This document shows, one piece after another, positions 6,828 to 32,909 of a stretch of 64,000 nucleotides of DNA (the stretch's first letter is position 1; every line of letters starts with the position of its first letter). This DNA is from Verrucomicrobiota bacterium (GTDB taxonomy: Bacteria; Verrucomicrobiota; Verrucomicrobiia; Verrucomicrobiales; DEV007), in contig JAGWVU010000006.1 in the NCBI GenBank assembly GCA_018970725.1, positions 1 to 64,000 on the forward strand, in the 5' to 3' direction. The notes beneath the pieces were generated by a model, which saw only the letters and a program-made list of their open reading frames with translations, was not told where the DNA came from and did not search any database. Made by a program: the position numbers and the translations under genes.

Positions 6828-7691
6828 TCAAGCGTGACCGGAGGCATCCGGGGCTCCGCGACGGACGACGTAACTGCCGGATTTCTCGTCCTCCTCGAGC
6901 CGAAGCATTCCACGCTTTTGGGCTTCTTTGAGTACGTCGCTGAAACTGCGGAATCCGTAATCCCTTTCAATGAACCCGGGCCTTTGCCTCTTGATGGTCT
7001 GTTTGACCATGGAAGCCCAGATGACGGTTTCCTCCCCCCGTTCCTCGAGCAGGGTATCCAGCGTCTCGGCCACCAGATCGATGGCCTCGTCCCGCCGGTC
7101 CGGTTGCGGGTTGTCGGGCGATGCGGCCCCGGACGAGGCGCGTTTGGGAGAGGGTTTGGCGCGGTTTTCGACCTTGCGGACGAGATCGTCGTAGAAAATG
7201 AACTCGTCGCAGTTGGAAACGAATAGGTCGGAGGTGGAGTGGCGGACGCCCAGCCCGATGACCAACTTGTTGTTTTCCCGCAACTTGCTGACCAAGGGGG
7301 AGAAATCAGAGTCTCCGCTGATGATCACGAAGGTATCGACGTGCGGCTTGGTGTAACAGAGGTCGAGGGCATCGACCACCATCCGGATGTCGGCCGAGTT
7401 TTTGCCGCTCTGGCGGAAATGAGGGATGTCGATGAGTTCGAACGCAGCCTCGTGCATCGACCGTTTGTAGGTTTCGTAGCGGGACCAGTCGCAATAGGCC
7501 TTTTTGACGACGATGTTTCCCTTGACCAACAGGCGTTCGAGGACCTTGGCGATCTCGAAGCGGGCGAATTTGGCCTCACGGGCACCGATCGCGACGTTTT
7601 CGAAATCACAGAAAACGGCGAGGATGGAGGTGTTGTTGCGTTCGGAAGCGATGGAGTTGACGTGGTTCAAGGACGCAGGACTATCGCGCAC
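6828..7691 (-). CDS. NYN (PIN-like) nuclease with OST-HTH/LOTUS domain
   Basis: A 287-residue protein with a GTG start. Residues about 23-170 form a NYN/LabA-type PIN-like domain: the first acidic motif is FCDFENV and the central one is SGDSDF, with a further aspartate in NSADIRMVVDAL, giving the acidic site used by this RNase superfamily. A charged linker (about 172-200) leads to a C-terminal winged-helix OST-HTH/LOTUS-type domain (about 200-280, with GFIERDYGFRSFSDVLKEAQ), which in relatives binds RNA. The likely role is RNA cleavage or RNA quality control in the cytosol. Its start overlaps the stop of the upstream M50 gene by 11 bases, suggesting translational coupling with that cassette. 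Confidence 0.85.
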   Translation of the reverse strand: MRDSPASLNHVNSIASERNNTSILAVFCDFENVAIGAREAKFARFEIAKVLERLLVKGNIVVKKAYCDWSRYETYKRSMHEAAFELIDIPHFRQSGKNSADIRMVVDALDLCYTKPHVDTFVIISGDSDFSPLVSKLRENNKLVIGLGVRHSTSDLFVSNCDEFIFYDDLVRKVENRAKPSPKRASSGAASPDNPQPDRRDEAIDLVAETLDTLLEERGEETVIWASMVKQTIKRQRPGFIERDYGFRSFSDVLKEAQKRGMLRLEEDEKSGSYVVRRGAPDASGHA

Positions 7692-9951
7692 CCGTGGCTT
7701 CTTCCCAGCGATTTGTGAGATACACGATGACTTTTTCGCAGAGCCAGGCGCCGAGCCTTGCGTCGGCCACGTTTGCGAGTTTTACGTAACCCCAGACGCC
7801 CTCGCAGAGTCGTCCGGGAAGAGATTCCCCGGCCTGCAGCGTGGCGTGGGCGGCGAAGCGGGCCTCGGTGAGTTCCTGGGAAGCGAGGGCTTCGGACTCC
7901 TGGTCCAGTCCGGCGAAGTGGCTTCGCTCGGGATCCCCGGCCCTTTCCCTCGCCAACCCGGTTTGCCGCCCGGCGTGGTCCTGCGGACGGCCGCGGACCG
8001 GCAAAGGTCCGCCGCCGGTGGAAAGCAGGGCAAGATGAGGCACGGCGGTGGTGGCGCTGGCTTCCGGACGCTCCAAAACGGCCTTCCAGGTCCCGGTCTG
8101 GCCGCGGAGGCGGAGCACCACGGGTTGACCGCGGTGGGCATCGAGAATGGCCCGGTGTTTTTGGGCCACGGAAAGCAAGACGGTGGGAGCGGAGTCGGGG
8201 ATCACCGTGAGGAGCGCGGTGCCGGGATGGAGATAGCGCCCCTTGAGCGAGGGCAGTTCCGCGCCGAAGACCCGCCCGGTCATGGGAGAGCGGAAGGTCA
8301 TGCTGTCGGTGAGTTCCTGGGTGGCGGCGAGCTTTTCCCGGAGACTGCGGAGGTGTTCGCTCTCCGCTTGGTAGGCGCTGAGGCGCTCCTCCTCGAAGTA
8401 TTGGCGGCGGCGCAACTCGGAGTGTTGGATGTCGAGTTTGAGCTGGCCCAGTTCGGCCGATTTCCCGGGGTTGAGGAGCACGGCGAGCACCTGACCGGCC
8501 TCCACGATCTGGCCGTTGGTGCAGTGCACCTCCTCGACGAATCCCGGGCAGCGGACACGGAGGATGGCCTTGCCGGCGAATTCCATGACGGCGGGAGCCT
8601 TGGGCGCGGGGCTGATCCGGATGAACCAACCCGCGGCGAGAAGGGAGGCTCCGACGAGGGCGAGACGAAGCAGTGCCCGGCCGAGATGAGGCCGGGGACC
8701 GCCGCCGCCCGTCAGCAGGAAGGAGACGGTTTTCACGGCGCCGGTCAGGAGCAGGCCCGCGACGGAAAACGCCGCGAGAATGATCCCGGCCCCCTTGAAG
8801 AGGAGGGCCACCGCCGTCATGATCCCGATCCAGACGACCCACCGCCAGACGAAGGCCAGAATCCCGTAGGTGCCGATGGCGAAAGGTTGCGCGAGGAAGG
8901 CGGGCGGTGGTTGGTCCCGGATGCCGAAAAAGAGTTTCCGGCCGAGCCACTGGACGAACTGCTGTCCCTTGGCCGCGAGGTTCGGAATGCGCAGCAGATC
9001 GGAGAGGATGTAATACCCATCGAACCGCATCAGAGGATTGGCATTGAACAGCACCGTGATCGTGGACGCCGCGAAAATGGTGTTGTAAGCGACCGTGTTG
9101 GCAATGCCGGGACCGGTGTTGACCCAGACAAGCGTCGCCGCCGCGGCGAGAAAGAGTTCGATATACATTCCCGCCGCGGCCACTTGGATGCGGTGCCAGC
9201 GACTGGCGAAGCGCCAGCTGCCGCTGGCATCGACATAGGTCATCGGCGTCACGAAAAGGAGGAGCTGCACGCCCCACTCGGGCACGACGGCCCCGTGTCG
9301 TTTGGCGAAGATCCCGTGCCAGACCTCGTGGACCAGCTTCAAGGTCACATAGGTGAGTCCGAGGTAAAACCAGTTCCGCGGGAGCACGGCGGAGGTGGTG
9401 GCCTGCACGAAGGTCTGCCAGTTCCGGGCGAGCGAATAGGCGGCGACCATGACAAACGCGATCCAGACCACGAGGAAAACGGGCCCGGTGGCCCAGCGCA
9501 AGCCGGAGAGCCAGATGCCCAGGACGCGGTCCGGGTTGCCGACGGGAAACTTGAGGAAGAGGAGTTGTTGGAGGATCGATTGCTTTTGCGGGGCCGGTCT
9601 GCCGGCGGCGCTGCGGTTGCGGCGGTCCGATTGATCGGCCGAATCCGTTTCCAACAGTTTCTGCTCCACCAACCAGCGCAGGATCACTGACGCCTCGGGT
9701 TCGCTCAGGGCCCGTTCACCGATGTCCCGGGCATTCCTCGCCAACAATTCGGAAGCGGTGCGGCGCCCGTCCATGCCGCGGAGGAACTGATATTCCGCGA
9801 GGCCGATCTGGAAATAGCGCCGATGGGTTAGGTCCTCGAGGATGTAGCTGGGGCGCCCGCGCAGGTCCTGAAAGGTGAACCGGAGGTCCCGCCGCAGCCT
9901 CGGGCGGGAGACGCTCAAATCGCGGACCGAATGATCTGGCGTGTGCGTCAT
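7681..9951 (-). CDS. PqqD-like/M50 protease/lipoyl-domain membrane protein (YydH-like)
   Basis: A 756-residue protein from the ATG at 9951, 11 bases after the upstream stop; in-frame starts at 9963 and 9987 would overlap that gene. Residues about 30-105 form a small PqqD-like winged-helix region (RRYFQIGLAEYQFLRGMDG). A polytopic membrane region (about 140-430) carries the S2P-type zinc motif LVHEVWHGIF (near 205) and the second motif NANPLMRFDGYY (near 300), as in intramembrane M50 proteases. After further helices, residues about 460-560 are a biotinyl-lipoyl/HlyD-like hairpin (GFVEEVHCTNGQIVEAGQVL) with a coiled coil, then a beta-barrel-like tail. Relatives are annotated as peptide zinc metalloproteases of the YydH kind. 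Substrate peptide and exporter are not visible. It lies between a GAF-HlyD adaptor and a NYN nuclease in one unit. Confidence 0.82.
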   Translation of the reverse strand: MTHTPDHSVRDLSVSRPRLRRDLRFTFQDLRGRPSYILEDLTHRRYFQIGLAEYQFLRGMDGRRTASELLARNARDIGERALSEPEASVILRWLVEQKLLETDSADQSDRRNRSAAGRPAPQKQSILQQLLFLKFPVGNPDRVLGIWLSGLRWATGPVFLVVWIAFVMVAAYSLARNWQTFVQATTSAVLPRNWFYLGLTYVTLKLVHEVWHGIFAKRHGAVVPEWGVQLLLFVTPMTYVDASGSWRFASRWHRIQVAAAGMYIELFLAAAATLVWVNTGPGIANTVAYNTIFAASTITVLFNANPLMRFDGYYILSDLLRIPNLAAKGQQFVQWLGRKLFFGIRDQPPPAFLAQPFAIGTYGILAFVWRWVVWIGIMTAVALLFKGAGIILAAFSVAGLLLTGAVKTVSFLLTGGGGPRPHLGRALLRLALVGASLLAAGWFIRISPAPKAPAVMEFAGKAILRVRCPGFVEEVHCTNGQIVEAGQVLAVLLNPGKSAELGQLKLDIQHSELRRRQYFEEERLSAYQAESEHLRSLREKLAATQELTDSMTFRSPMTGRVFGAELPSLKGRYLHPGTALLTVIPDSAPTVLLSVAQKHRAILDAHRGQPVVLRLRGQTGTWKAVLERPEASATTAVPHLALLSTGGGPLPVRGRPQDHAGRQTGLARERAGDPERSHFAGLDQESEALASQELTEARFAAHATLQAGESLPGRLCEGVWGYVKLANVADARLGAWLCEKVIVYLTNRWEEATGAR

Positions 9952-9962
9952 GGCTTCCGGCA

Positions 9963-11846
9963 TCACCAGAGGTTGAGCCTCACCCAATCCCAGAGGCGGT
10001 GGAACAAGGTCCAGCCGAGGAAGCGGTGCCCCGTTTCAACGCGCGCTTTGCCCAGCATCCCGGGCCGCAACCCGCCACTGGAGTTGTCCACGGTCGAGAG
10101 GCTCACGAAAATGTTTCTTCCGTCCCTGACCTCGGAGATGGGATACACCTGACTCACCACGCCCCCGTGCCTGAAACGGGCTTGAGCCTCAAGGCGGAAC
10201 CGCACTTTTTGGCCGGTGGCGACCTGGGCGACCTCGGAATCCGGCACCTCGATTTCCAATTCGAGACGGTCGAGCGGGGCGATGTCGAACAGTTTCTGCC
10301 CGGTGGTCACCGGGACTCCCTCGGACCGCTCGAGGTTGCCGCTGATGAGGCTGCCGGAGATGGGGGCCCGCACCTCGAGGTGGTCCTTCTGGTAGCGCAG
10401 CAGATCGACCTGGAGCCCCAAACCATCGGCCTGGAGTTGCGCCAGTTGTTTGGCGGCGATGTCACGGGCGGCCATGGCTTGGTCGCGCTCCTTGAGGGCG
10501 GCCTCCCGCTTGGCGATGGCCTCGGCGAGTTTCCAGCGGATCTCCTTGCCATCGAGCACCGCCAGAAGCTGGCCGGCCTCGACCGTTTGGCCCGGTTTGA
10601 CCAAAGCCCGTTCCAGAATCCCGTCGAAAGGCGCGGCGACCTGGCGGGTCACTTCGGGTTGGAGCCGGCAATTCGCGGAGACGTGGTAGGGAACGGGGAG
10701 GAACATGGCCACCAGGAAAAGGATGGGGGCGGCGATGGCGGCGGTTTTCCGGTATTGGCCGGCGGTCGCCCAAAACCGTTTCCAGGCGCCCGGCAGGCCC
10801 CGGGGCAGACTCTCCCCGCAGAGATAGACCAGCGCGGCGAGGTGGGGGGCCGCGGCTTGGAGCAACTCGATTTCCTGTCTCCGGGCCGGACGCTCCCGGT
10901 CCCAAAGCAGCAGGATGGCCCCCACCGTCTCCGGCGTTTTCGTGCCTGCCGGTTCCGTTTTGAGCGGGATCGCCAGCGCTTCGGCCGCGCTCATGGTGTC
11001 CAGCAGGGGCGTGTGATTGGCCGCCGTCAACACCCCGGTCCCGTCGTTCCGCTCCGGCCAGGCCAAGGGGGAATCCACCCCGATCGATTCCCGCATCAGC
11101 GCGGAGATTTGGGAGGTGGCCTGGCTCGAATCCTCCACGTGGCCGGCCCCCGAGAGGGCATGCACCCTGCAGTGCAGCTGGTCCCCGGCCCCGATGGCCA
11201 CCCGGGCCGCGCCGGTGAGTTCCGCCAGCTCGTCGCAAATCATCGCCATGCCCGCCCGGAACTCCCTCGCCTTGGCCACCCGGCTGAAGAGATCGACCAG
11301 CAACGTCGCCTGATCGAACCCCGACTGCAGACGCTTCGCATGATCGCCGAAAGCGCGCCGCACAAAAATCTGGGTGACGAGATGCAGCACGGTGAAGACC
11401 GATTCCACGGCGGAGGCACGCTCCGGTCCGAGCAGCAGGGCCAAGGCGGCGGGGGGACGCCCCGTGATGGTGAACGGTACGCAGAGGAGGGCGTATCTGC
11501 CGGTCGCGAGGGAGATGGTGGCCCGCTGGCTGGCCCCCTTGGCGACAGCGGAGGTGGCGATGAGATCGACCTGTTGTTGCGCGGTGAATCCGGCGGCCTG
11601 GGGATCGTTGGCCACAATGACCTTGGCAAGGAGATGGGGGCCGGACTGCTCGTAAAGGAAACCGAAGCGGCTGGCGGTCAGCGCAACGGTCAGGGCCACC
11701 GCGGCTTGGTCGAAAGCGGGGGCGTCGAGATCCGCAAACAAGCGCTCGATTTCCGCCAGGGTCTGTTCCGGGCGGGATTCCGGGTCACCGGCCACCGTTG
11801 GCGTCGCGATTTGGTCCGGGGCGGCGGATGGGGGAAAGGGGCTCAC
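9963..11846 (-). CDS. GAF-domain HlyD-type membrane fusion protein
   Basis: A 627-residue product with a GTG start. The N-terminal half (about 25-350) is cytosolic and appears to contain one or two GAF-like sensor modules (for example FRAGMAMICDELAELTGAARVAIG and the EALAIPLK...GAILLLWDRE block). A single membrane helix follows at about 367-388 (AAIAAPILFLVAMFLPVPYHV). The periplasmic half has a lipoyl half (VAAPFDGILERALVKPGQTVEAGQLL), a coiled-coil hairpin (about 440-490), the second lipoyl half and a beta-barrel domain typical of adaptor proteins. The layout implies an export adaptor whose activity is controlled by a cytosolic ligand. It is first in the minus-strand cassette with the M50 protein and shows no neighbouring ABC, RND or TolC gene. 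Confidence 0.82.
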   Translation of the reverse strand: MSPFPPSAAPDQIATPTVAGDPESRPEQTLAEIERLFADLDAPAFDQAAVALTVALTASRFGFLYEQSGPHLLAKVIVANDPQAAGFTAQQQVDLIATSAVAKGASQRATISLATGRYALLCVPFTITGRPPAALALLLGPERASAVESVFTVLHLVTQIFVRRAFGDHAKRLQSGFDQATLLVDLFSRVAKAREFRAGMAMICDELAELTGAARVAIGAGDQLHCRVHALSGAGHVEDSSQATSQISALMRESIGVDSPLAWPERNDGTGVLTAANHTPLLDTMSAAEALAIPLKTEPAGTKTPETVGAILLLWDRERPARRQEIELLQAAAPHLAALVYLCGESLPRGLPGAWKRFWATAGQYRKTAAIAAPILFLVAMFLPVPYHVSANCRLQPEVTRQVAAPFDGILERALVKPGQTVEAGQLLAVLDGKEIRWKLAEAIAKREAALKERDQAMAARDIAAKQLAQLQADGLGLQVDLLRYQKDHLEVRAPISGSLISGNLERSEGVPVTTGQKLFDIAPLDRLELEIEVPDSEVAQVATGQKVRFRLEAQARFRHGGVVSQVYPISEVRDGRNIFVSLSTVDNSSGGLRPGMLGKARVETGHRFLGWTLFHRLWDWVRLNLW

Positions 11847-13309: not shown

Positions 13310-13357
13310 TTCCCCGTGCGGGTTCGGAGGGAGCCAAGGACCAAGCGGAACGCCGCG

Positions 13358-15316
13358 ATGATCGTCGTCCACTATCTGGTGTTCCTCCTCTATCGCGGTT
13401 TGGAGACCGCGGTCTTCTTCCTCCCGTTGTGGGTCTGCTCCCTGCTCGGCGGATTTATCGGAAATCTCGCCTATTTCCTTCTCCCCGGTCCGCGCCGGAC
13501 GACCGTGGGCAATCTCCTCATCGCGTTCGGGGGCGAAATGGGAATCGGCGAGTGTCGGCATATCGGACGACGCCACTTCGCGGCCTTGGGCAGGAACTTC
13601 CTCTGCGGGCTGAAACTTTCCCAGATGCGGCCGCGGTCCGTGGAAAAGCGGGTGCGCCATGAGAATGCCCAGAACGTTCTGGAGGCGGTCGAGGAACAGC
13701 GCGGGGTGATCGGGGTGATCCTCCACATGGGACCATGGCCGCTGCTGAACCGGATTCCGCTCTTTGGACCCGGCGTTTCCCAGGCCCATCTTTTCCAACC
13801 CTGGGGCAACCCGTTTCTGGACCGTCACCGGCTGCGCGCCCGGTCTGGTGACGACCTGATCTTGTTCGATCCCCGCCAAGGCTACCATGCCGCGATGCAG
13901 CATCTCCGGGAAAGGGGAGGCATCACCCTTTTCGTGGACGGGCACGCCGGTTCGAGCGGGGTCTGGTGTCCGTTTTTCGGTCGCTTGGCGTCGACCACGA
14001 ATCTTCCGGCCTTGCTCGCGTTGAGAACCGGGGCCCCCATCGTGCCGATTGGGATTCATCCCGACGGTTTGGCCCGGTGGCGGGTGGTTTACGGGGAAGC
14101 GATCCGCACCCGGGATGAAGGCGGACGGGAGATCGGCAGCGCCAAGCTCACGGCCACCCTCAACCAAGCGGCTGAACGGCTCGTGCGCCGCGTGCCGGAA
14201 GAGTGGTTCTGGATTCACGAGCGCTGGAAAACGCCCCGTCCGGAGTTTCTCCTGAGCGCCTACCGGCGGGGAGTGGAATACCCGCCCGGGTTCCGCCAGG
14301 AACATCTGAAGCCCTTCCGCATCCTGATCCGGTCATCGAACTGGCTGGGAGACGCCTGCATGTCCGTTCCCACGGTGCGCGCCATCAAGCTGGGTCGGCC
14401 CGACGCCGAAATCACGGTGCTCTGCAACGAGAATCTGGCGGAACTCTGGCGCGCCGTCCGCCATGTGGATCACGTCGTGGCCCGCCCGCGCCGCGCTTCG
14501 GTTTGGAAGGCCGCCGGGCTGATCCGCCGCGCCGGGAGGTTCGACGCGGGCGTTCTCTTCCCCAACTCGCTCCGGTCCGCGCTGGAGATGAAACTGGCCG
14601 GGGTGAACCTGGTGACCGGTTTTTCGAATGCCCTGCGCGCCCGATTGATCGATCTCCCCGTCCCCGAGCGGCAGGCGCCGGGGCCACCGGAACACCACGC
14701 CTGGCGTTACCTGCGGATCGCCCACGCAATTGGGGCGGACAAATCGGACCCCGACCTCTACGCCTCGCGCGAGCACCGGCCGGAGTTCGGGGGAACCTGG
14801 AGGATCGGCCTCTGTCCGGGAGCGGCGTATGGGGACGCGAAACGCTGGCCCGCGGAGCGCTATGCCAAGGCCGTCGCAGCCCTGCAGCAAAGGCTCGGGG
14901 GCAAGGTGGAGTGGTCCGTTTACGGCGCACCCAACGAGGCCGCGCTGGCGGCCAGCCTGACCGCTGCTTGCCCGGTCCCGCTCGAAAACTTGGTGGGAAA
15001 GACCAGCGTCTCCGAGCTGATGGAACGTTTGCAGACGCTGCACGTGCTGATCACAAACGATACCGGCACGATGCATCTGGCGGGGCTGTTGGGGGTGCCC
15101 ACGGTCTCCATTTTCGGCTCCACCGAACCGGCCCTAACCTCGCCGCTGGGGAAAAACCACCGGATCCTGCGCAAGCACGTGGCCTGCAGTCCCTGTTTTT
15201 TGCGCGAGTGTCCGCTCGATTTCCGCTGCATGACCGGGATCGAGGTCGGGGACGTCGTCGCGGCGACGCTCGAGCGGTTGGAGCAAGTCCCCGGTGGACG
15301 GACGACGCCGGGATGA
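13358..15316 (+). CDS. Lipid A acyltransferase-heptosyltransferase fusion
   Basis: A product of about 652 residues from the ATG at 13358; a GTG at 13316 is an alternative. Residues about 1-300 match the LpxL/HtrB lysophospholipid acyltransferase-like family (membrane anchor, then ILHMGPWPLL, DGHAGSSGVWCPFFG and the ALLALRTGAPIVPIGI block). Residues about 315-645 match ADP-heptose:LPS heptosyltransferase II (RSSNWLGDACMSVPTVRAIK, LCPGAAYGDAKRWP, NDTGTMHLAGLLGVPTVSIFGSTEP). The fusion would join lipid A acylation with inner-core heptose addition at the inner membrane. The catalytic HX4(D/E) motif of the acyltransferase half reads HMGPWP, so the acid is replaced by proline and that half may be inactive or altered. 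A heptosyltransferase alone is the minimum safe assignment. Confidence 0.85.
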   Translation: MIVVHYLVFLLYRGLETAVFFLPLWVCSLLGGFIGNLAYFLLPGPRRTTVGNLLIAFGGEMGIGECRHIGRRHFAALGRNFLCGLKLSQMRPRSVEKRVRHENAQNVLEAVEEQRGVIGVILHMGPWPLLNRIPLFGPGVSQAHLFQPWGNPFLDRHRLRARSGDDLILFDPRQGYHAAMQHLRERGGITLFVDGHAGSSGVWCPFFGRLASTTNLPALLALRTGAPIVPIGIHPDGLARWRVVYGEAIRTRDEGGREIGSAKLTATLNQAAERLVRRVPEEWFWIHERWKTPRPEFLLSAYRRGVEYPPGFRQEHLKPFRILIRSSNWLGDACMSVPTVRAIKLGRPDAEITVLCNENLAELWRAVRHVDHVVARPRRASVWKAAGLIRRAGRFDAGVLFPNSLRSALEMKLAGVNLVTGFSNALRARLIDLPVPERQAPGPPEHHAWRYLRIAHAIGADKSDPDLYASREHRPEFGGTWRIGLCPGAAYGDAKRWPAERYAKAVAALQQRLGGKVEWSVYGAPNEAALAASLTAACPVPLENLVGKTSVSELMERLQTLHVLITNDTGTMHLAGLLGVPTVSIFGSTEPALTSPLGKNHRILRKHVACSPCFLRECPLDFRCMTGIEVGDVVAATLERLEQVPGGRTTPG

Positions 15317-20904: not shown

Positions 20905-21315
20905 GGCGCGAACCTACCGGATGAGTCCTCACCGACCAAGCAAAAACAGGGACGGATTGGCGGACCGCCGAATGGATAAATCTTGTCACATGAGCGCGAC
21001 GCGGAACAACTCCTCCCACACACCTCTCCAATTCACGATGCACCCTGCCCAACCGTTATCCACGCCCCCCGGTCTTTCCCGCGCCGCGGAAACTTCCTCT
21101 ACGGACTTTTCGTCCCCCCGGAACCTTCGGCAAGCGCACTAGCGCGAAATTCAGCCGAGAAATATTCGCCATCCCCGCCGGCCGCTGGCCAGGCCAAACT
21201 CCCAGCCAAACGACCGCTCGCGGGACCGCGACTTCCGTGAAGCTTGAAACACGAGTTATTCAGGCATTTTTGACTAACGAAGTTACTGTTTTTACTCAAT
21301 ATCCACGTGCTGCTT
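20905..21315. other. Intergenic region between sulfatase and SUMF1 gene
   Basis: No gene is supported. The last 70 bases are AT-rich against the background; a TTGACT at 21270-21275 could be a -35 element for the downstream gene, but no good -10 sits at the right distance. The region should hold the divergent promoters of the sulfatase and of the large surface protein. Confidence 0.45.
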
Positions 21316-24300
21316 ATGAACTTGCACATTTTCCGCTTTCCCCTCCCCTTCCGCGCCTTCCGGGCGCTCGTATTTCTTCTGGCTTTGCTCAACGGCCCTC
21401 TGCACGCCCAGCCATCGGTGTCGAACCTCACGGCCGGCAGGAAATCCGGGACCAGCCTGGTGAGCATCGGTTATGATCTCTCCGCGCCCGGAAGCCCGGG
21501 AGTATCCGTGAGTCTCGAGGTTTCCAGCGACAACGGCGCCACTTGGAACGTTCCGGTGTTGACCGTGAGCGGACAGGTCGGAAACCGGGTGGTGCCCGGC
21601 CTTGGAAAGGAAATCCTTTGGGACTGGGGCAAGGACTGGCCCCAAGGCAAGATCACCACGATGCGCTTCCGGGTGCGGGTGGATGACAGGGCCGGCGACG
21701 GCTCGAATCTCCTGCAGAATTTCTCTTATATACCCCCCGGAGAGTTCACGATGGGACGGGTCGGCGGGGATGCGGACGCGGATGCCCCGCCGGTGAACGT
21801 GACCGTCAACGGCTTTTATCTGCAGGCGAAGGAGACCACCAAAGCGGAATGGGACCTGGTGAGGACTTGGGCCTCGGAGAACGGCTACACCGACCTTGCG
21901 CCCGGCGCCGGCAAAGGCCCCGACCATCCGGTGCAATCCGTGAACTGGTGGGATGTGGTGAAGTGGTGCAACGCCCGCAGCGAGATGGAGGGCCTGACAC
22001 CCTGTTACAACGTGGCCGGCGCGGTGCTGAAAAGCGGAACCGCGCCCCCCACGGTCAACTGGCACGCCAACGGCTACCGTATGCCCACTGAAGCCGAGTG
22101 GGAAAAGGCGGCGCGCGGCGGCGTGAGCGGAAGGCGGTTTCCGAACGGCAAGGATACGATCGGGGCGAACGAGGCCCGTTTCGGCGGGTCGGAATCCACC
22201 GTGCCGGCCGGGAGCTTTCCCTTCAACGGCTTCGGCCTGGGCGACATGGCGGGCAACGTCGGGGAATGGTGTTGGGATTGGTATCAACCCGCCTATTACA
22301 CCGTGGGAGCGACCGATCCCCGGGGGCCCGCCAGCGGCGCCACCCGTGTCGTCCGAGGCGGGTCGTTCGAGAGTGCAGCCGTGTCCCTGCGCTCCTCTAA
22401 TCGCTCCGCGTCTTCATCCAACACCCGATCCAACGCGACCGGCTTCCGTCCCGCGCGCGGCCGTCTTCCCAGCGAGTTCGTGGAAATTCCAGCCGGCGAG
22501 TTCACCATGGGCCGGACCAGCGGCGATTCCGACGCGGATGCGCCCCCCGTGACGGTGAACGTCAGCGCGTTCCAGATGCAACGGACGGAAACCACCAAGG
22601 CCCTGTGGGACGAAGTGCGGGCCTGGGCGTTGCTCCATGGGTATCCCGACCTCGCGCCGGGCGGAGCCAAGGGACCGCAACATCCGGTCCAGTCCGTGAG
22701 CTGGCGGGACGCGGTCAAGTGGTGCAACGCGCGCAGCGAAATGGAAGGGCTCACCCCGTGTTATCTCGTGGCCGGTGCCGTCCTCAGGTCCGGGACGGCG
22801 GCCCCGGCCGTGAACTGGAACGCCAACGGCTACCGGCTCCCCACCGAGGCGGAATGGGAAAAGGCGGCCCGTGGCGGCGCCGAGGGCCGGCGTTTCCCCT
22901 GGGGCACGGACACGATCGGCCATGACCGGGCCAACTACTACGGCAGCGGAGCCTCTGCCTATGACCAGAGTCCGGTCAACGGCTTTCACCCGGAACACGC
23001 GTCGGGCGGGCAACCCTACACCGCGCCGTCGGGAAGTTTCGCGACCAACGGTTTCGGCCTGCACGATGTGGCCGGCAACGTCCAGGAATGGTGCTGGGAT
23101 TGGTATGGCGGCACCGCCTATGCCCAAGCGGCCAGTGATCCCCGCGGCCCCGCCACCGGCACCACCCGGGTCTTGCGCGGCGGTTCCTGGGGCACCGGAG
23201 CCATCAACGCGCGATGCGCCCACCGGGGCAGCGTGGCCCCGGGCTTCCAAAACTCCTCCACCGGTTTCCGGACCGCGCGGGGGAACGCGTTCAACGGCTT
23301 CGCCGGGATCCCGGGTGGAGCCTTCACCTTGGGACGGACCAGCGGGGATCCGGACGCGGACGCGCCTCCCGTGCTGGTCGGGATCGACCGGTTCTTCCTG
23401 CAACGGACCGAGACGACCAAGGCGCAATGGGACCTGGTGCGGGACTGGGCGCTGGTGAATGGCTACACCGATCTCCCGGAAGGCGGCGGCGAAAACCCGC
23501 AACATCCGGTGCACTCGGTGAACTGGTGGGACGTGGTGAAGTGGTGCAATGCCCGCAGCGAAATGGAAGGGCTCACTCCCTGTTACACTGTCGGGGGCAG
23601 CGTGATGCGAATCGGGAACATGGTCCCGTCGGTCGTCTGGAAAGCCAACGGCTACCGTTTGCCCACCGAAGCGGAATGGGAGAAAGCGGCGCGGGGAGGA
23701 ATCGCCGGAAAGCGTTTCCCCTGGGGGACCGATTCCATCGACGAAACCCTGGCCAACTACTACGCCGGCCGATGGTTCGACTATGACCAAGGCGGCTTCA
23801 CGGATGCGGGCACGGTCGCGGCCGGCGGTTTTCCCGGCAACGCCTTCGGCCTGAGTGAAATGGCCGGCAACGTGCGGGAGTGGTGCTGGGATTGGTATGG
23901 CAGCAACTCCTACCAAGCCTCGGCCGACAATCCGCGCGGTCCGGACTCCGGCGCCAACCGGGTGACGCGAGGCGGCGGCTGGAGCGACTTCGCGATCCGT
24001 CTCCGGAACGCCCACCGCTCCAGCGAAGGACCCGGCGCCCGCAACCGTCTCATGGGATTCCGTCCGGCGCTTGGCGGTCCCCGGGTGGAGCCCCGTTCCA
24101 TCGTGAGCGCGCAGAGCCCTCCGCTGGAGCTCGACTCGCGGCAAGCTCCGGCCGTGTCCCTGCCGGTCGCGACGGTCATCTCGGGGACGGGCGCAAATCT
24201 GGGAGGTCAGGTGACCGGTGATGGCGGCGCGCCGGTCACCGAGCGCGGCGTGGTCTATTCCCTCGGCACGGTGAACTTCGATCCGATGATCGGGGGGACG

Positions 24301-26616
24301 GGCGTCGTCAAGATCGCCAACCCGGGAACCCTGGGCACCTTTGCGGTTCCGGTCAGCGGATTGATCCGAGGGGCCGGATACAGCTTCAAGGTGTATGCTT
24401 CCAATGCCATCGGAACCAACTACTCCGCGGTTTCCACTTTTGACACCCTGCCTCCGGACGCCCGGCTCAACGGACTGGAACTGATGGGAGCAAGTCTCAG
24501 CCCGACCTTCGCGAGCGGGGTATTCCGTTACTCCGCGGAGGTGGGATTTGGCATGGCGTCGGCCTCGGTCCGCGCCTTCACCGAAGAGGACGCGCCCACC
24601 ATCAGGGTCCGGGTCAATGGCGGCACGAATCAGGTGGTGGCGGCCAGCACTTGGATCCCCTGCCATTTGAATGCGGGCGCCAACCGCATCGAAATTCTCG
24701 TCACCAGCCGGGATCGAACCAAGCAGCGAACCTACACCCTGACGGTGACGCGCCGGGCCGCCCTGCCGCAGGCGATCACCTTCGCCCCTCCCCGCTCCGT
24801 CTACCGGGGGGACAACCGCTTGATCCTGACCGGATCGGCTTCTTCCGGACTGCCGTTGAGTTATCGGGTTGTCGACGGCCCCGCCACCCTCTCCGGAACT
24901 CAACTGACTTTCACCGGGGCGGGAGCCCTCACCGTCGAGGCCACCCAACCCGGGGGCGGAAACTTCGCGCCGGCCGCCCCGGTGCGGCGCTCCATTCTGG
25001 TCCACCCGGATCCCGCCACCCTCACCCTGACCGGATTGAACCCAATCTACGACGGGCTACCCAAACCCGTCACCGTCCGCGGCGGCGTTCCGGCGACCGT
25101 CACCTACACGGTCGGCGGCAAAGAGACCGCAACACCGCCCGTCAATGCCGGGAGCTACCCGGTCCGGGCCGTGGCCGGGTCGAGGGTCCAACGCGCCACC
25201 CTGGTCATCGCCAGGGCTCTGGTCATGGTGACCCCGCGCGATGCCAGAAAGCTCATCGGCCAACCCAACCCGGTGTTTTCCGCGACTTACAGCGGGTTCC
25301 GCGGTTCGGACAACGAGGGCGTCCTGACCCAACCCCCGGCTTTGACCACCAAGGCGACGGACATGAGTCCGGGCGGGAACCATCCGATCACGGCCAGCGG
25401 TGCCTCCGCCGCCAACTACCGCTTCACCTATCGGACGGGCACCCTGACGATTGATTCGTTTGCCGGTCGATACGAAGGCCTGGTGAGCGAAACCGGCATT
25501 CTGCCGCTCGGCAAGCTCTCGATTCTCGTGACCGACCGCAACAACGGGTTCACCGCCAGACTGAACTCGGTTTCGGAGCCGGGTGAGCTGTCCTTCCGCG
25601 GAACGCTGGAGATCAATGCCCCCAATGGCAGGGCCACTGGAACCGCGGCTTCCAAAACCAATGGCGCCGCCTACTCCATCAGCTTCTCCCTGCCGCTGGA
25701 CGGTCCCGCCACCATGAGTGTCACCCGCAACGACGCCCCGTTCGGTTCCACCGGAAACGGCCGGAAATTGCCGGCGCTGGGGAATGTGCCCTACCGCGGG
25801 ACCCACACCGCCATCCTGCAGCCCGCCACCCCGGCCGACGGTCCGGTCCCCGCCGGGTCGGGTTGGGCCACGGCCGATATCGCCGCCAACGGCACCCTCA
25901 CGCTAACGGGCAAGTTGGCCGACGGCACCGCGTTCACCACCGCGCTGGCTCCCGATGGACAAGACAACCCGGGCTACCGTCTCTTCGTTCAACCCTACCT
26001 TCCCGCCCGGGCCGGCTCCTTCCTCACCGGGGAGTTCAACCTCACTCCCCACCCGGACCTGCCCGACCGCCGGCACCTGGAAGCCTCCAGCCTGACGTGG
26101 GCCAAGGCCGCCCGGGAGACCGACGCCACCTACCCGGCGGGCTTCGGAGCGGTTGTCACGAGCTTGGGAATCGATCCCTGGCGGCCGCCCGTGGCCGCGA
26201 CCGGCTCCACTCCCGCCGTGACCTTGGTCCAGCGCTTGTTGGGGCCGACCGCCGCGACCAGCCTGATCGACGTGGCCCATAGCCCGACCGGGAGCAACTC
26301 GAACGCCGATCTGCCGACGGTGGTGCAGCTGGGAGCGGACAACCGCGTCACGGTCGTCGCCCCGCTCACCAACCCAATCAACCGGACCAACTGGAAGGTC
26401 ACCTTCGAGCCGAAGCGGGGAACCTTCACCGGCAGCTTTGAACTCCGCGACGGGCCCCGCAAGCGCGTGGTTCCCTTCAGCGGGGTTCTGCGCCAGGCGC
26501 CCGGCACCAGCATGGACGCGGTCATCGGGGACGGTCACTACCTCATGCCGCCCTTGAATCCGGCATCCGGCGGAACCCGGAGCGGCGAGATCCTCCTGCA
26601 AACGCCGGAAGATTGA
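21316..26616 (+). CDS. Large surface protein with three SUMF1 domains
   Basis: A product of about 1766 residues from the ATG at 21316, with a signal peptide ending LHAQ. After a beta-sandwich N-terminus (about 30-135) come three tandem formylglycine-generating-enzyme-like (SUMF1) modules at about 136-385, 386-655 and 656-920, each with CNARSEMEGLTPCY, RLPTEAEWEKAARGG-type and GNV(G/Q/R)EWCWDWY blocks. All three lack the cysteine pair that true FGEs carry after RGGS(F/W), so they are probably binding or structural modules. Then follow an Ig-like region, a cadherin-like beta-sandwich (about 1050-1150), an Ig-like and an MBG domain (about 1300-1380), and a C-terminal beta region (about 1385-1766). 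The end of that region resembles the partial protein at the right edge of the window. It is likely secreted or surface-attached. Confidence 0.85.
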   Translation: MNLHIFRFPLPFRAFRALVFLLALLNGPLHAQPSVSNLTAGRKSGTSLVSIGYDLSAPGSPGVSVSLEVSSDNGATWNVPVLTVSGQVGNRVVPGLGKEILWDWGKDWPQGKITTMRFRVRVDDRAGDGSNLLQNFSYIPPGEFTMGRVGGDADADAPPVNVTVNGFYLQAKETTKAEWDLVRTWASENGYTDLAPGAGKGPDHPVQSVNWWDVVKWCNARSEMEGLTPCYNVAGAVLKSGTAPPTVNWHANGYRMPTEAEWEKAARGGVSGRRFPNGKDTIGANEARFGGSESTVPAGSFPFNGFGLGDMAGNVGEWCWDWYQPAYYTVGATDPRGPASGATRVVRGGSFESAAVSLRSSNRSASSSNTRSNATGFRPARGRLPSEFVEIPAGEFTMGRTSGDSDADAPPVTVNVSAFQMQRTETTKALWDEVRAWALLHGYPDLAPGGAKGPQHPVQSVSWRDAVKWCNARSEMEGLTPCYLVAGAVLRSGTAAPAVNWNANGYRLPTEAEWEKAARGGAEGRRFPWGTDTIGHDRANYYGSGASAYDQSPVNGFHPEHASGGQPYTAPSGSFATNGFGLHDVAGNVQEWCWDWYGGTAYAQAASDPRGPATGTTRVLRGGSWGTGAINARCAHRGSVAPGFQNSSTGFRTARGNAFNGFAGIPGGAFTLGRTSGDPDADAPPVLVGIDRFFLQRTETTKAQWDLVRDWALVNGYTDLPEGGGENPQHPVHSVNWWDVVKWCNARSEMEGLTPCYTVGGSVMRIGNMVPSVVWKANGYRLPTEAEWEKAARGGIAGKRFPWGTDSIDETLANYYAGRWFDYDQGGFTDAGTVAAGGFPGNAFGLSEMAGNVREWCWDWYGSNSYQASADNPRGPDSGANRVTRGGGWSDFAIRLRNAHRSSEGPGARNRLMGFRPALGGPRVEPRSIVSAQSPPLELDSRQAPAVSLPVATVISGTGANLGGQVTGDGGAPVTERGVVYSLGTVNFDPMIGGTGVVKIANPGTLGTFAVPVSGLIRGAGYSFKVYASNAIGTNYSAVSTFDTLPPDARLNGLELMGASLSPTFASGVFRYSAEVGFGMASASVRAFTEEDAPTIRVRVNGGTNQVVAASTWIPCHLNAGANRIEILVTSRDRTKQRTYTLTVTRRAALPQAITFAPPRSVYRGDNRLILTGSASSGLPLSYRVVDGPATLSGTQLTFTGAGALTVEATQPGGGNFAPAAPVRRSILVHPDPATLTLTGLNPIYDGLPKPVTVRGGVPATVTYTVGGKETATPPVNAGSYPVRAVAGSRVQRATLVIARALVMVTPRDARKLIGQPNPVFSATYSGFRGSDNEGVLTQPPALTTKATDMSPGGNHPITASGASAANYRFTYRTGTLTIDSFAGRYEGLVSETGILPLGKLSILVTDRNNGFTARLNSVSEPGELSFRGTLEINAPNGRATGTAASKTNGAAYSISFSLPLDGPATMSVTRNDAPFGSTGNGRKLPALGNVPYRGTHTAILQPATPADGPVPAGSGWATADIAANGTLTLTGKLADGTAFTTALAPDGQDNPGYRLFVQPYLPARAGSFLTGEFNLTPHPDLPDRRHLEASSLTWAKAARETDATYPAGFGAVVTSLGIDPWRPPVAATGSTPAVTLVQRLLGPTAATSLIDVAHSPTGSNSNADLPTVVQLGADNRVTVVAPLTNPINRTNWKVTFEPKRGTFTGSFELRDGPRKRVVPFSGVLRQAPGTSMDAVIGDGHYLMPPLNPASGGTRSGEILLQTPED

Positions 26617-26750: not shown

Positions 26751-28076
26751 ATGAAGAACCCGCTCGATCGCAGAAGCGCCATCCGTTGCCTAGCCGCCGG
26801 GGCCGGAGCCGTTTTCGGGGCCGCCACGGAATCCGCCATCCCCGCCCCGGGCTCAACTTCCGGAGGTCCGCGGAGGATCATTTTCTTCCTCCAGAATCAA
26901 GGGTTCGACCCCGCGACCTGCGTCCCCGCGGAAATGACCGGGAGCGGCTCCCTGGCCGGGGTCAAGTTGCCCGAACCGATCCAGCCGCTCGAAGCCTACA
27001 AGGAGCGGCTGCACATCATCACCGGGCTGCACGGACTGCACACCAGCCCGTCCCACAGTGCCTTTTTCGGTGCACTCGGCGGCTATCGCGGCGGGGATGG
27101 GGTCCCTCCGAGCGCCTCCACGATCGACTACGAATTGAGCAAGGTGCTGCCGGAGACGCTCCTGCCACATCTCTGCATCGGAATGGATTCAATGGAAAAC
27201 ATGACGGCCAAGCCCACGATCGCCAATCTCTCGGCGAGCGGCGCCGGTCAGCCGATCTTCATGCACTCCAACCCGAATCATCTCTACCAGATGCTCTACG
27301 GTGGCATCTCCGAGGGGGAGATCCGCAAGCAGCACGAGGCGCGGACCGGCTTGTTCGAGCGAATGGAGAAGCTGGCGGCGGCCAAGGGCAACGGGTTGCC
27401 GGCCGCCGAACAGCCGCGGTATCGAGGCTACGTGGGCGGGTTTCACGAGATCAACGACCTCCGCGGGCGTCTCGGAGGCGTTTCGGAAACCTTGCGGAAA
27501 TTCGCGCCTGCCGTGGACCAGCGTTACACCGCACCGAAATTCGAGACGGACTGGCACGATGTCCTCCTTGATCTGGGTCTCTCCGCCCTGAAGTCCGGCC
27601 TCACCAGCGTCCTCACGATCGGTTCGGGGCGCGGCGAAATCTTCGGATCGTGGAAGGGGCTCGGCATCGATCAGCAGGGGCACAACCTCGGGCATATGCC
27701 GCAGCCGGACAATCCGATCTGGATCAAGATCCGCCAATACAATAGCCGCATGCTGGTGCGCCTCATGGAAGGACTCGAAAGTGTCCCCGAGGGCAACGGC
27801 ACCATGATGGATCACACCCTGATCGTCTACACCAGCAACAACGCGGACGCCCAGCACACCAGCGGTGCCAACTGGCCCGTCATGCTGCTGGGCCACTGCG
27901 GCGGCGTGTTCAAGTCCGGCCGGCTCACCCGCCTCGACGGCAAACGTCCCATCAACGCGCTTTATACCACCTTGTTGCGCAGCGCCGGCGTCCGGCTGGA
28001 CCACTTCAACCTGAGCGCCCCGATGGCGGCCAAGTTCGATTCCGCCTCCGGCCCGCTCAAAGAAGTTCTGGCATGA
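26751..28076 (+). CDS. DUF1552 secreted protein
   Basis: A 441-residue protein beginning with a Tat-like signal ([23 protein letters not shown]; the RR pair is followed by a hydrophobic stretch). It matches DUF1552: [43 protein letters not shown]-type and [17 protein letters not shown] blocks. This family is related to the alkaline-phosphatase-like DUF1501 proteins and is of unknown function. Its stop overlaps the start of the next gene by 4 bases (ATGA). In Planctomycetota and Verrucomicrobiota it almost always pairs with a DUF1592/DUF1588/DUF1585 cytochrome, as here, suggesting a joint periplasmic redox role. Confidence 0.88.
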
Positions 28077-30709
28077 AGCCACTCCGCCTCGCCTTCGCCG
28101 TGGCTACCCTCGTCCTGCCCGGACCCGGGTCCGGCGCGGAGCGGACTTATACCCCGGGCGAACCGGTCCGCGGGACCTTCGACGGCTTCATCCAGCCTTT
28201 TCTCGACCAACATTGCCTCGAATGCCACGACGACTCGGTGGCCAAGGCCGGCCTCAACCTCCTCGACCTCGGCCCCGTCGATGAAACCAACGCAGCCGTC
28301 TGGAAATCGGTCTGGGCCCAGGTCTCCCTGCGCGAGATGCCTCCCGGCAAGAGACCGCGGCCGGAAGTGATCGACCGGCTCCAATTCACCGACTGGGTCG
28401 TGGACGCGTTGCAGGAGGCCATGAAAGACAAGGGCGGCTTCCAAGCCCATCTCGATCCGAAAAAAGCGAACTTCCTCGAACACGATCTCCTGTTCCGCGA
28501 TCCGCCCGCCGGCATCCATCTCAAGCCCACCTCTTCTCCGGCCCGGCTCTGGCGCGTCACCCCGCAGGAGCACATCACCCGGCTCAACGAGCTGATCAAC
28601 GTGGAGCCACCTTACAATCCCGCCAAACCGGGGCTGCGGACCCACGGCGACGCCGTGCCCACCAACCATGGCGGCGAGTTGAAGCTCTATTTCGGCACGG
28701 ACAACATCCTGCGCTGGGAAGGGGGGACCGTGGCCTACGCGACTGCGGTGAAAAGCGTTCCCGCCGTCCTTTCCCTGGCGCGGAAACACGGACTCAAGAA
28801 CTACCCCGGCTTCTATTCGGTGAACAGCGCCGAAGCCACCCAGATCCTCGGCAAAGCGGAGGATATCCTCCAATACATGGCCAGCGGCCCGCTCAGCCTC
28901 GTCGGCATGCCCGAACAGATCACCGACGATCCCCGGACCTACGACAAGGTCAAGCCCCCGGGCGATCTGCGAGGCCTGCCTACCGCGATTGTCTACAGCA
29001 CGAAATTCCTTCGCCCCGCGACTCCCCTCCTCAACCTGATGAAGGACGACGCCCTCCCTTCCGACGAGGCGCTCCGTGCCACGGTGGACCATCTGTTCGA
29101 GGCGCTCGCCTTCCGTCCTCCCTCGACCGAAGAGGCGGACGAATATATCCAGCTCGTCAGGGAATCGATCGCGAAGATCGGCAAAACAGAGGGAGTCTTT
29201 CTGGGTCTGTCAGCCATTTTCCTCGACCGCGACGCCCTGTTCCGGCCCGAACTGGCGGAGACCGGTGAGCCCGACGCCCACGGCCGCGTCATGCTGCGGG
29301 ATTGGGAACTCGGTCTGGCCGTCAATCACGCCTTGCGCTACCTCAAACCCGACCCCGCGCTCCGCGCCGCCATTGTTGGGGGAAAGATGCGGACGCGGGA
29401 GGACGTCGAACGCGAGGTCACCCGCATGCTGCGGGACGACACCATCCGCAAACCGCGCATCCTCCAATTCTTCCGGGATTACTTCGATCACGATCTCGCC
29501 GGAACCATTTGCAAGGACAACCGGGCCCTCGCCGCGACCGGCATCACGGCCCGCGGGGACGATCACTATCTGGCCATGTTCGATGCCGCCGCCAGCACCG
29601 ACCGCCTGATCGAAATCATCCTGAAGAACGACCGGGAGGTTCTCAAGGAACTGCTCACCACCCGACAGGTCGTCGCGACGGAGACCGACAGGATCTATTT
29701 CGGCAGAAAACGCACCGCGCAAGAAACCAAGGTGGCCGCCGCGGAGCACGCCAAAGCCGAGGCGGCGACGACCGCGGAGGAAGAGGCGGCCCTCTCGAAA
29801 ATCCGGGCGGAGATCGCCTCCATCCAGATCCGGTCGCAGGAAACCCCGGGCGAACCTGCCACCGCCAAATCGCTCGACCGGAGGGCAAAGGCGCTCGACG
29901 CGGAGATGAAACGGATCCTGCAACAGCGCAAGCGGCGCCAGCAGAATGCCGCCTTGGAGGTGGCCCCCGCGTCCCTCAGCGGTCCACCGACGGAGGCCCG
30001 CGTGAGCCGCCCCTCTTTCGGTAGCGGCTCAATGAAGCCGGAACGGATTCTCGCGACCGTCCCCGAAGGAGAGCGTCTCGGGATTCTGACCCATCCCAGC
30101 TGGCTCGTATCGCATTCGGACGCGATGGACAACCATGCCATCCGGCGCGGCATCTGGATCCGGGAGCGGCTTCTCGGCGGCGGCATTCCGGACGTGCCGA
30201 TCACGGTGGATGCCAAACTTCCGGACGAACCGCACAACACCCTCCGCGAGCGGATGCGGGTGACGCGGGAGAACTACTGTTGGTCCTGCCATGAGAAGAT
30301 GGATCCCCTTGGCCTGCCTTTCGAGATCTACAACCACGCCGGCCTCTATCGCACGACCGAACTGGACAAACCGGTGGATGGCCGCGGCGAAATCAAGGAT
30401 TCCGGCGACCCCGCGCTCGATGGCCCGGTGGCGAACGCGATCGAGATGATCCAAAAACTCGCCGCCAGCGAGCGCGTCGAGCAGGTCTTCGTGAGGCACG
30501 CCTTCCGGTTCTGGATGGGCCGCAACGAGACGCTCAACGACGCCCCGGTCCTTCAAGCCGCCCATCGGGCCTATCGGGACAACGGCGGAAGCCTGAACGC
30601 CCTGATCACCTCCCTCCTCACCTCGGATGCCTTCCTCTACCGGGTGGTCGACCGCAAGGGCTCAACGGACCTCACCGCGCTCCGGTTTCCAGAGTGTGCG
30701 GATCCTTGA
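28073..30709 (+). CDS. Periplasmic c-type cytochrome, DUF1592/1588/1585
   Basis: An 878-residue protein with a signal peptide (ending GSGAE). A first haem-binding motif, HCLECHDD, sits in an N-terminal PSD1-type cytochrome region (about residues 40-110). DUF1592-like helices follow (about 300-520), then a long charged helical insert rich in Ala, Glu and Lys (about 550-630). A DUF1588 block contains a second Cxx[16 protein letters not shown] (about 735-745), and the C-terminus is DUF1585-like ([20 protein letters not shown]). It is a likely dihaem electron carrier or oxidase partner of the DUF1552 protein, translationally coupled through ATGA. Its 3' end overlaps the convergent HAD gene by 48 bases. 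Confidence 0.87.
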
Positions 30710-31351
30710 CAGGCTGATGTCCGTGAGACGGTTCACCACCAGGTCCGCCAGCGGTTCCAAGCTGGGGACGGGATGGGTGGTGGCCACGCCGACAGCCTTC
30801 ATGCCACCGCGCCGGGCCGCCTCCAGACCGACGAAGGCGTCTTCGAAGACCACGCAATCCCGGGGGGCCCGGTTGATCCTGGAAGCGGCCACGAGAAACA
30901 CCTCGGGATCCGGCTTGCCGTTGCGGACATCCTCGGCGGAAGTCACGGCGGCAAAGAACGGGCCGAGCCCCGTGATCTCCATCACGGTGCGGATGTTCTC
31001 CCGGGGCGTGGAGGACCCGACCGAGCAGGGCACGCCGTGCTCGCCGAGTTCTTCCAACAACTCAAGCACGCCCGGCAACGGATCGATCCCGGTCTGCTGG
31101 AGGATGTCCCGGTAAATCTGTTCCTTGTGATCGGCCAAGGTGGACATCCGCTCGGTGTCCGCGGGGTCTACCCAGCCCAGAAGGGGACCGAGGATGCTTT
31201 GGTTGCGCATGCCGAAGCACTTGGCGAACAACTCGTCCGAGAACGGTTTTCCCAGCTCCCCGGCCAATTGGTAGAAGGCGCGGCGGTGCTGCTCGTGGGA
31301 GTCGATGATGACGCCATCCCAATCGAAAATTACTCCAAGCGGCCGGTCCAT
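30662..31351 (-). CDS. HAD-family sugar phosphatase or phosphomutase
   Basis: A 229-residue HAD hydrolase. Motif I is IFDWDGVIIDSH, with the nucleophile aspartate near residue 10 and the second Asp two residues on; motif II is CSVGSSTPR; motif III with IV is NGKPDPEVF...VVFEDAFVGLEAARRGGMKAVGV. The helical cap and the ED-A signature place it with beta-phosphoglucomutase-like and small-phosphate-ester phosphatases. The exact substrate cannot be read. Its start codon overlaps the stop of the upstream PDZ protein gene by one base, so it belongs to the HtrA operon, and its 3' end overlaps the convergent cytochrome gene. Confidence 0.87.
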   Translation of the reverse strand: MDRPLGVIFDWDGVIIDSHEQHRRAFYQLAGELGKPFSDELFAKCFGMRNQSILGPLLGWVDPADTERMSTLADHKEQIYRDILQQTGIDPLPGVLELLEELGEHGVPCSVGSSTPRENIRTVMEITGLGPFFAAVTSAEDVRNGKPDPEVFLVAASRINRAPRDCVVFEDAFVGLEAARRGGMKAVGVATTHPVPSLEPLADLVVNRLTDISLSRIRTLWKPERGEVR

Positions 31352-32877: not shown

Positions 32878-32909
32878 CGGTAGGATGGGGATGGGGGTTT
32901 GAACGGGGT

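Follow-up and report, generated by a model that had tools for sequence, protein, structure and literature searches.

The 64,000-nucleotide stretch analysed here (the window) covers positions 1 to 64,000 of contig JAGWVU010000006.1, from the draft assembly GCA_018970725.1 of a Verrucomicrobiota bacterium (order Verrucomicrobiales), and carries two adjacent minus-strand genes encoding a GAF-HlyD protein (9963-11846) and a PqqD-like/M50/HlyD protein (7681-9963). On the basis of gene content and gene order in relatives, we consider it likely that the two make up the inner-membrane portion of an envelope-spanning exporter for giant surface proteins that bear the LEPR-XLL domain (NCBIfam NF012209, LEPR-8K), with a SecA-like ATPase and a further HlyD adaptor encoded on another contig of the same genome (C75) and a TolC-family channel encoded elsewhere. 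A SecA_DEAD/M50/GAF-HlyD/HlyD/(TolC) locus was described by Kamneva, Poudel and Ward (PLoS One 2015, PMC4452313), who proposed that SecA acts as the ATPase and that M50 forms the membrane pore, stated that parts of the locus may sit elsewhere in a genome, and called its biological role 'completely unknown'; LEPR, giant proteins and PqqD are not mentioned in that paper. The locus itself is thus not new; the cargo proposal is, with the reservation that the literature was searched without preprints, so that a later or unpublished link to LEPR is possible.

Judged by its domains and neighbours, the window pair belongs to the 2015 locus, split from its motor. That locus comprises Peptidase_M50-HlyD, GAF-HlyD and HlyD/biotin_lipoyl proteins, a secondary SecA_DEAD protein without the wing-scaffold and, sometimes, an OEP protein. 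The genome studied here has an M50-HlyD protein with HExxH, an adjoining GAF-HlyD gene, a secondary SecA_DEAD protein and an HlyD gene beside the SecA-like gene; it differs in the separation of the pair from the SecA and HlyD genes, and a cargo is now proposed. Locus membership, conservation of the catalytic motifs, co-occurrence and gene order can be read from the sequences directly.

Coordinates and domain searches agreed with a first-pass annotation of this DNA, which had listed three minus-strand open reading frames (ORFs) with their domains. The GAF-HlyD ORF encodes 627 residues, with a cytosolic GAF-like region, one transmembrane segment only, at about residue 368, and a periplasmic adaptor of the HlyD/RND (resistance-nodulation-division) type (residues 398-606; 10029-10655, minus strand), which matched HlyD_D23 (PF16576, 6.7e-19) and HlyD_3 (PF13437, 2.1e-17). 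The putative GAF domain (residues 202-338; 10833-11243, minus strand) scored 20.2 bits against PF01590, just below the cut-off of 22.4, and its assignment relies on relatives: GAF was matched by 12 of 26, with a best value of 3e-8.

The second gene is open from TTG 9987, from which its ORF counts 768 residues (7681-9987, minus strand), and its likeliest start is ATG 9963, which overlaps the GAF-HlyD stop by 1 nt (TGATG). The 11-base gap or overlap first reported before this gene fits, as a gap, the next ATG; the likeliest start gives the 1-nt overlap instead. The protein carries the zinc motif HEVWH (9316-9330, minus strand) and a NANPLMRFDGYY motif (9010-9045, minus strand) that includes the third zinc ligand, an Asp, N-x-N-P-L and D-G-Y being invariant in alignment A3. 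HExxH and NxNPLxxDG are retained in 40 of 40 relatives, the window protein having HEVWH and NANPLMRFDG. Its profile matches were HlyD_3 (5.6e-8), daptide_HExxH (6.1e-42, below the curated cut-off) and a weak, sub-cut-off Peptidase_M50, and phmmer gave no match to the PDB; the M50 assignment relies on relatives, NCBIfam and structure results. An AlphaFold model of the protein had a mean pLDDT (predicted local distance difference test) of 80.6, and its adaptor region (residues 463-641; 8065-8601, minus strand), identified by Pfam and Foldseek, resembled the TMexC, MacA and MexA adaptors (best E 4e-11).

The N-terminal domain of the M50 protein (residues 27-112; 9652-9909, minus strand) was predicted as a winged helix of three strands and three helices, with a core pLDDT of 89-96. 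The top six Foldseek matches were all recognition elements (RREs) of ribosomally synthesized and post-translationally modified peptides (RiPPs), solved together with leader peptides (5v1u, 5v1v, 6jx3; probability 0.85-0.99, E 0.04 or weaker), and an independent profile search of PDB sequences placed PqqD first (E 0.014-0.016). PF05402 was matched by 4 of 31 relatives (best E 0.015); a PqqD-like sequence that is not a database record, compared with the N-terminal profile, gave a probability of 97.6, which serves as a lead only. The agreement of the model, the RRE matches and the profile search bears out the PqqD-like winged helix that had been noticed from the letters alone. Predicted fold and best structural and profile matches are shared with PqqD (3g2b) and RREs such as TbiB1 (5v1u); sequence similarity is weak, and here the domain is fused to a membrane protease-adaptor. 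These predictions support a PqqD/RRE-like fold, and make it plausible that the M50 protein reads a leader.

Neighbourhoods of about 20 kb were fetched for 40 loci of relatives and their ORFs clustered; partner genes were counted by a tblastn rescan. The GAF-HlyD and M50 genes were adjacent in 30 of the 40 loci; in 2 more they kept this order but lay further apart. Three further genes recurred beside them: a TolC-family channel (PF02321, 3e-41) in 15 loci, a second, secreted HlyD adaptor in 21, and a short SecA-like ATPase in 14. This ATPase has about 670 residues, matches SecA_DEAD (1.8e-78) and P-loop_SecA (4e-44), and has an invariant Walker A motif, TGEGKTL. The most frequent operon order was TolC, HlyD, GAF-HlyD, M50, SecA-like. 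Locus L068 has all five genes, and its M50 protein, 46% identical to that of the window, joins it with strong support in a quick tree, as its next relative outside the genus. The window protein falls in the SecA-linked clade of this tree; proteins without SecA form one separate group (SH-aLRT, an approximate likelihood ratio test of branch support, 94). In two phyla, a small DUF3467 (PF11950) protein is also repeatedly encoded upstream of GAF-HlyD (L071, L075, L079, L082, L083, L146 and, in Methylosinus, L152); it is a candidate cytosolic partner of the machine, and the window's genome has one DUF3467 gene, on contig C82.

No ABC (ATP-binding cassette), RND, TolC or peptide gene was found next to the window pair, as the first-pass annotation had said in describing a cassette with no visible exporter. 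The exporter looked missing because the loci are split: in this genome a SecA-like gene and an HlyD gene lie on another contig, and there are relatives that hold TolC, SecA-like and HlyD genes in one operon with the pair. The guess of an export device appears sound. The genome has one SecA-like gene (C75, 23080-25023; 788 bits), with TGEGKT and NMAGRGT motifs intact and no SecA_SW (wing-scaffold) match reported for its protein; it is overlapped by an HlyD gene (L089, 8206-9063, also on C75) whose product has a signal peptide. About a dozen OEP genes (25 OEP-domain matches) are present, none adjoining the pair or the SecA-like gene, and the outer-membrane channel would be one of these TolC-family proteins.

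The cargo is most likely, judging from the genes beside the machine, a LEPR-XLL giant protein rather than a small peptide. Long ORFs were found beside or between machine genes, of 11,336 residues in genome G049, 10,303 and 8,451 in G165, 9,770 in G113, more than 7,111 in G021, 5,502 in G056, 4,681 in G076 and 4,265 in G047. In 7 of these 8 a LEPR-[VIL]-L-[YF]-S motif occurs within the first 70 residues, and all 6 that were tested exceeded the cut-off of NF012209. In operons of the order TolC-HlyD-GAF/HlyD-M50-SecA, a LEPR giant follows the SecA-like gene on the same strand (10,591-11,734 residues in four genomes), and several LEPR giants of 18,000 to 20,466 residues were found in the phylum sample. 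No hydrophobic signal segment is present in the LEPR N-termini (maximum over 15 residues, 0.0 to 0.8). The window's genome encodes a LEPR protein on contig C89 (1772-1828, E 1.8e-5), in a 658-residue ORF that is cut off at the contig end and, for most of its length, shares 68-77% identity with LEPR proteins of two same-genus genomes; in one of these, G027, the LEPR open frame reaches 18,596 residues. A 1,769-residue protein of the window itself (21307-26616, plus strand), with FGE-sulfatase, cadherin-like and MBG domains, was rejected as cargo, having an ordinary hydrophobic N-terminal signal peptide and no LEPR; its gene adjoins a DUF1552 / DUF1588-DUF1592-DUF1585 pair (26751-30709). Near a LEPR giant in two loci, radical SAM and 2-oxoglutarate (2OG)-Fe(II) oxygenase genes lie directly downstream of M50 (L071, 11113-13112; L079, 6848-8954), and it is possible that their products modify the giant before export.

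Co-occurrence was examined in 190 genomes of the order and 388 of the phylum. The SecA-like gene was present in 47 of the former and 26 of the latter, every one of them M50-positive (47/47 and 26/26). With genomes treated as independent, LEPR followed the SecA-like gene closely, being found in 44/47 SecA-positive versus 4/143 SecA-negative genomes of the order (p 9e-35) and in 23/26 versus 6/362 of the phylum (p 1.7e-28); the six matches in SecA-negative phylum genomes are weak, in ORFs of 138-636 residues. Genomes with M50 and without the SecA-like gene showed no link (LEPR in 1/55, p 0.10). The SecA-positive genomes span about a dozen families.

The same gene order recurs in another phylum, on plasmids of Alphaproteobacteria. 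On plasmid pDSM107133_a of Pseudosulfitobacter sp. DSM 107133 (NZ_CP085155) a giant annotated as LEPR-XLL is followed by HlyD, a site-2 protease, SapC, the SecA-like gene and HlyD, the SapC-family gene lying within the operon at 14212-15033 of locus L155. In Methylosinus (NZ_AP022333) the order is giant, DUF3467, HlyD, a 'PqqD family' M50, SecA-like, HlyD, TolC, and in Alisedimentitalea (NZ_CP123586) giant, HlyD, M50, SecA. A further culturable carrier is Methylobacterium extorquens AM1, of which genes 2402-2399 are named in PMC4452313. Sets of TolC-HlyD-HlyD-M50 lacking SecA were found in Kosakonia and Magnetospirillum, on a distant branch of the M50 tree. In this branch (L153, a Kosakonia plasmid; L154, Magnetospirillum pMSR-1; L056-L063) M50-HlyD is accompanied by one or two HlyD genes, joined by TolC in L153, L154 and L063; the Kosakonia set adjoins a 2,348-residue Ig-like protein, and relatives were also matched on Escherichia and Citrobacter plasmids.

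Several observations weigh against an exporter of LEPR giants, or against its reconstruction in this genome. Its pair, its SecA-like and HlyD genes and its LEPR gene stand on three contigs, so that their connection relies on single copies and on relatives. Directly upstream of the SecA-like gene lies a ShlB/FhaC two-partner-secretion transporter gene (L089, 11183-13063, on C75; PF03865, 2.5e-26), in the position that TolC takes in relatives; this gene had been considered as a TolC and was rejected as such, and its place is not conserved in G027. The LEPR protein was not detected in 3 SecA-positive genomes of the phylum sample, and some neighbouring giants have no LEPR, among them the 5,502-residue ORF of G056, whose N-terminus is ordinary. 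LEPR-XLL, an orphan domain scarcely mentioned in the literature, has been described in a giant protein of Vibrio that shows RTX features (PMC10868602), where no transport machine was assigned to it. Finally, the co-occurrence p-values ignore phylogeny, and the samples drawn from order and phylum do not supply independent points.

We propose the following scheme for the exporter of LEPR giants. The cargo giants would lack a Sec signal peptide and begin with a LEPR-XLL segment, at least one being encoded in this genome, on C89. The PqqD/RRE-like domain of the M50 protein would bind the LEPR leader, the SecA-like ATPase would thread the unfolded chain, and the M50 membrane domain would form or gate the inner-membrane passage and cut the leader; three HlyD modules and TolC would form the conduit through the periplasm and outer membrane, and the GAF domain may sense a ligand and gate assembly. 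With rather less assurance than for the roles of the pair, we favour the view that SecA-like, M50-RRE, GAF-HlyD, HlyD and TolC form a secretion system in its own right, ABC-free and devoted to LEPR-XLL giants, in which an intramembrane protease with its own leader reader is the substrate gate and a SecA paralogue the motor. Giant adhesins are typical cargo of type I secretion systems (HlyB-HlyD-TolC), with which the proposed machine shares HlyD-type adaptors and, in relatives, TolC. It differs in that a SecA-like ATPase and an M50 membrane protein replace the ABC transporter, and in that the signal appears to be N-terminal (LEPR) and not C-terminal; no ABC transporter was found beside the pair or among the clusters recurring in the 40 loci (SecA-like, HlyD, TolC). 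A preprint on giant genes of Omnitrophota reportedly describes divergent SecA DEAD domains within giant proteins.

An alternative explanation is that the pair is a peptide-maturation and export unit, in which M50, a protease of the YydH/daptide type, would cut the leader of a small RiPP and the adaptors would carry the product out. The M50 core and N-terminal region are indeed homologous to those of the Daptide (NF041824) and YydH/LiaK (NF058609) proteases, daptide_HExxH being matched by 31 of 31 relatives and LiaK/YydH by 30; RiPP enzymes typically have an RRE-like domain, and the two loci with radical SAM and oxygenase genes would suit such a pathway. The window protein, however, scored far below the curated cut-offs (144.1 against 300 bits for daptide, 34.3 against 225 for YydH/LiaK), has an extra HlyD region and lies in no RiPP context. 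A recurrent TolC or short peptide gene had been named as the partner to look for: TolC recurred, and no recurrent short precursor gene emerged from the neighbourhood clustering, which took in ORFs of 60 residues or more. It is with giant proteins that the association is tight, and a LEPR giant also adjoins the radical SAM pair. We regard a small-peptide cargo, which the first-pass annotation had favoured in calling the protease YydH-like, as unlikely.

More doubtful still is a TolC-dependent small-molecule efflux pump, in which the M50 domain would be a structural remnant and GAF would sense the solute. The HlyD/MexA-like adaptor folds, the GAF sensor and the existence of M50-HlyD-TolC sets without SecA fit such a pump; the retention of HExxH and the Asp motif in all 40 relatives speaks against a remnant, and the SecA-linked clade, which includes the window protein, tracks LEPR giants.

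The third gene of the cluster (6828-7691, minus strand; 287 residues) encodes a NYN-OST-HTH protein (NYN 9e-36; OST-HTH 22.7 bits against a cut-off of 23.8). The 11-nt overlap with the M50 gene that had been reported holds if the gene starts at GTG 7691, a start that is uncertain because the alignment with orthologues begins no earlier than about residue 18-20. Its packing against M50 on the same strand is kept in 3 of 3 genomes of the genus, and there is a mild co-occurrence across the order (NYN in 42/63 M50 genomes versus 36/127 others). In the order sample, however, the NYN protein is more widespread than the M50 protein (113 genomes versus 66, of which 3 are HlyD-only matches), and the two genes adjoin in three genomes only, that of the window and two more from the same genus. 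Outside the genus, a 60-70% identical orthologue lies on another contig or megabases away, as in the complete chromosomes of G049 (NYN at 0.05, M50 at 1.72 Mb) and G056 (7.85 versus 5.12 and 6.12 Mb). The suggested linkage to RNA decay fails because the NYN gene adjoins the pair in this genus only, pairs without it occurring in close relatives. From its distribution the gene appears to be a chance neighbour, not a part of the machine, and its rejected role as a functional third member coupling export to RNA decay is highly improbable.

Elsewhere in the window, a single ORF (13316-15316, plus strand) combines two domains, a lipid A acyltransferase and a GT9 domain of the heptosyltransferase type, and two adjoining PDZ_3 genes (31351-34481, minus strand) encode a DegP-like trypsin-PDZ protease and a PDZ paralogue without a trypsin match.

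An exporter of LEPR-XLL giants would join two orphans, a secretion locus that has had no known role since 2015 and a signature without a known exporter that stands at the N-terminus of proteins among the largest predicted in bacteria. If the proposal is true, the machine would be an ABC-free exporter for proteins of 4,000-20,000 residues, and the presence of the whole operon on a plasmid of culturable alphaproteobacteria makes the question open to genetics.

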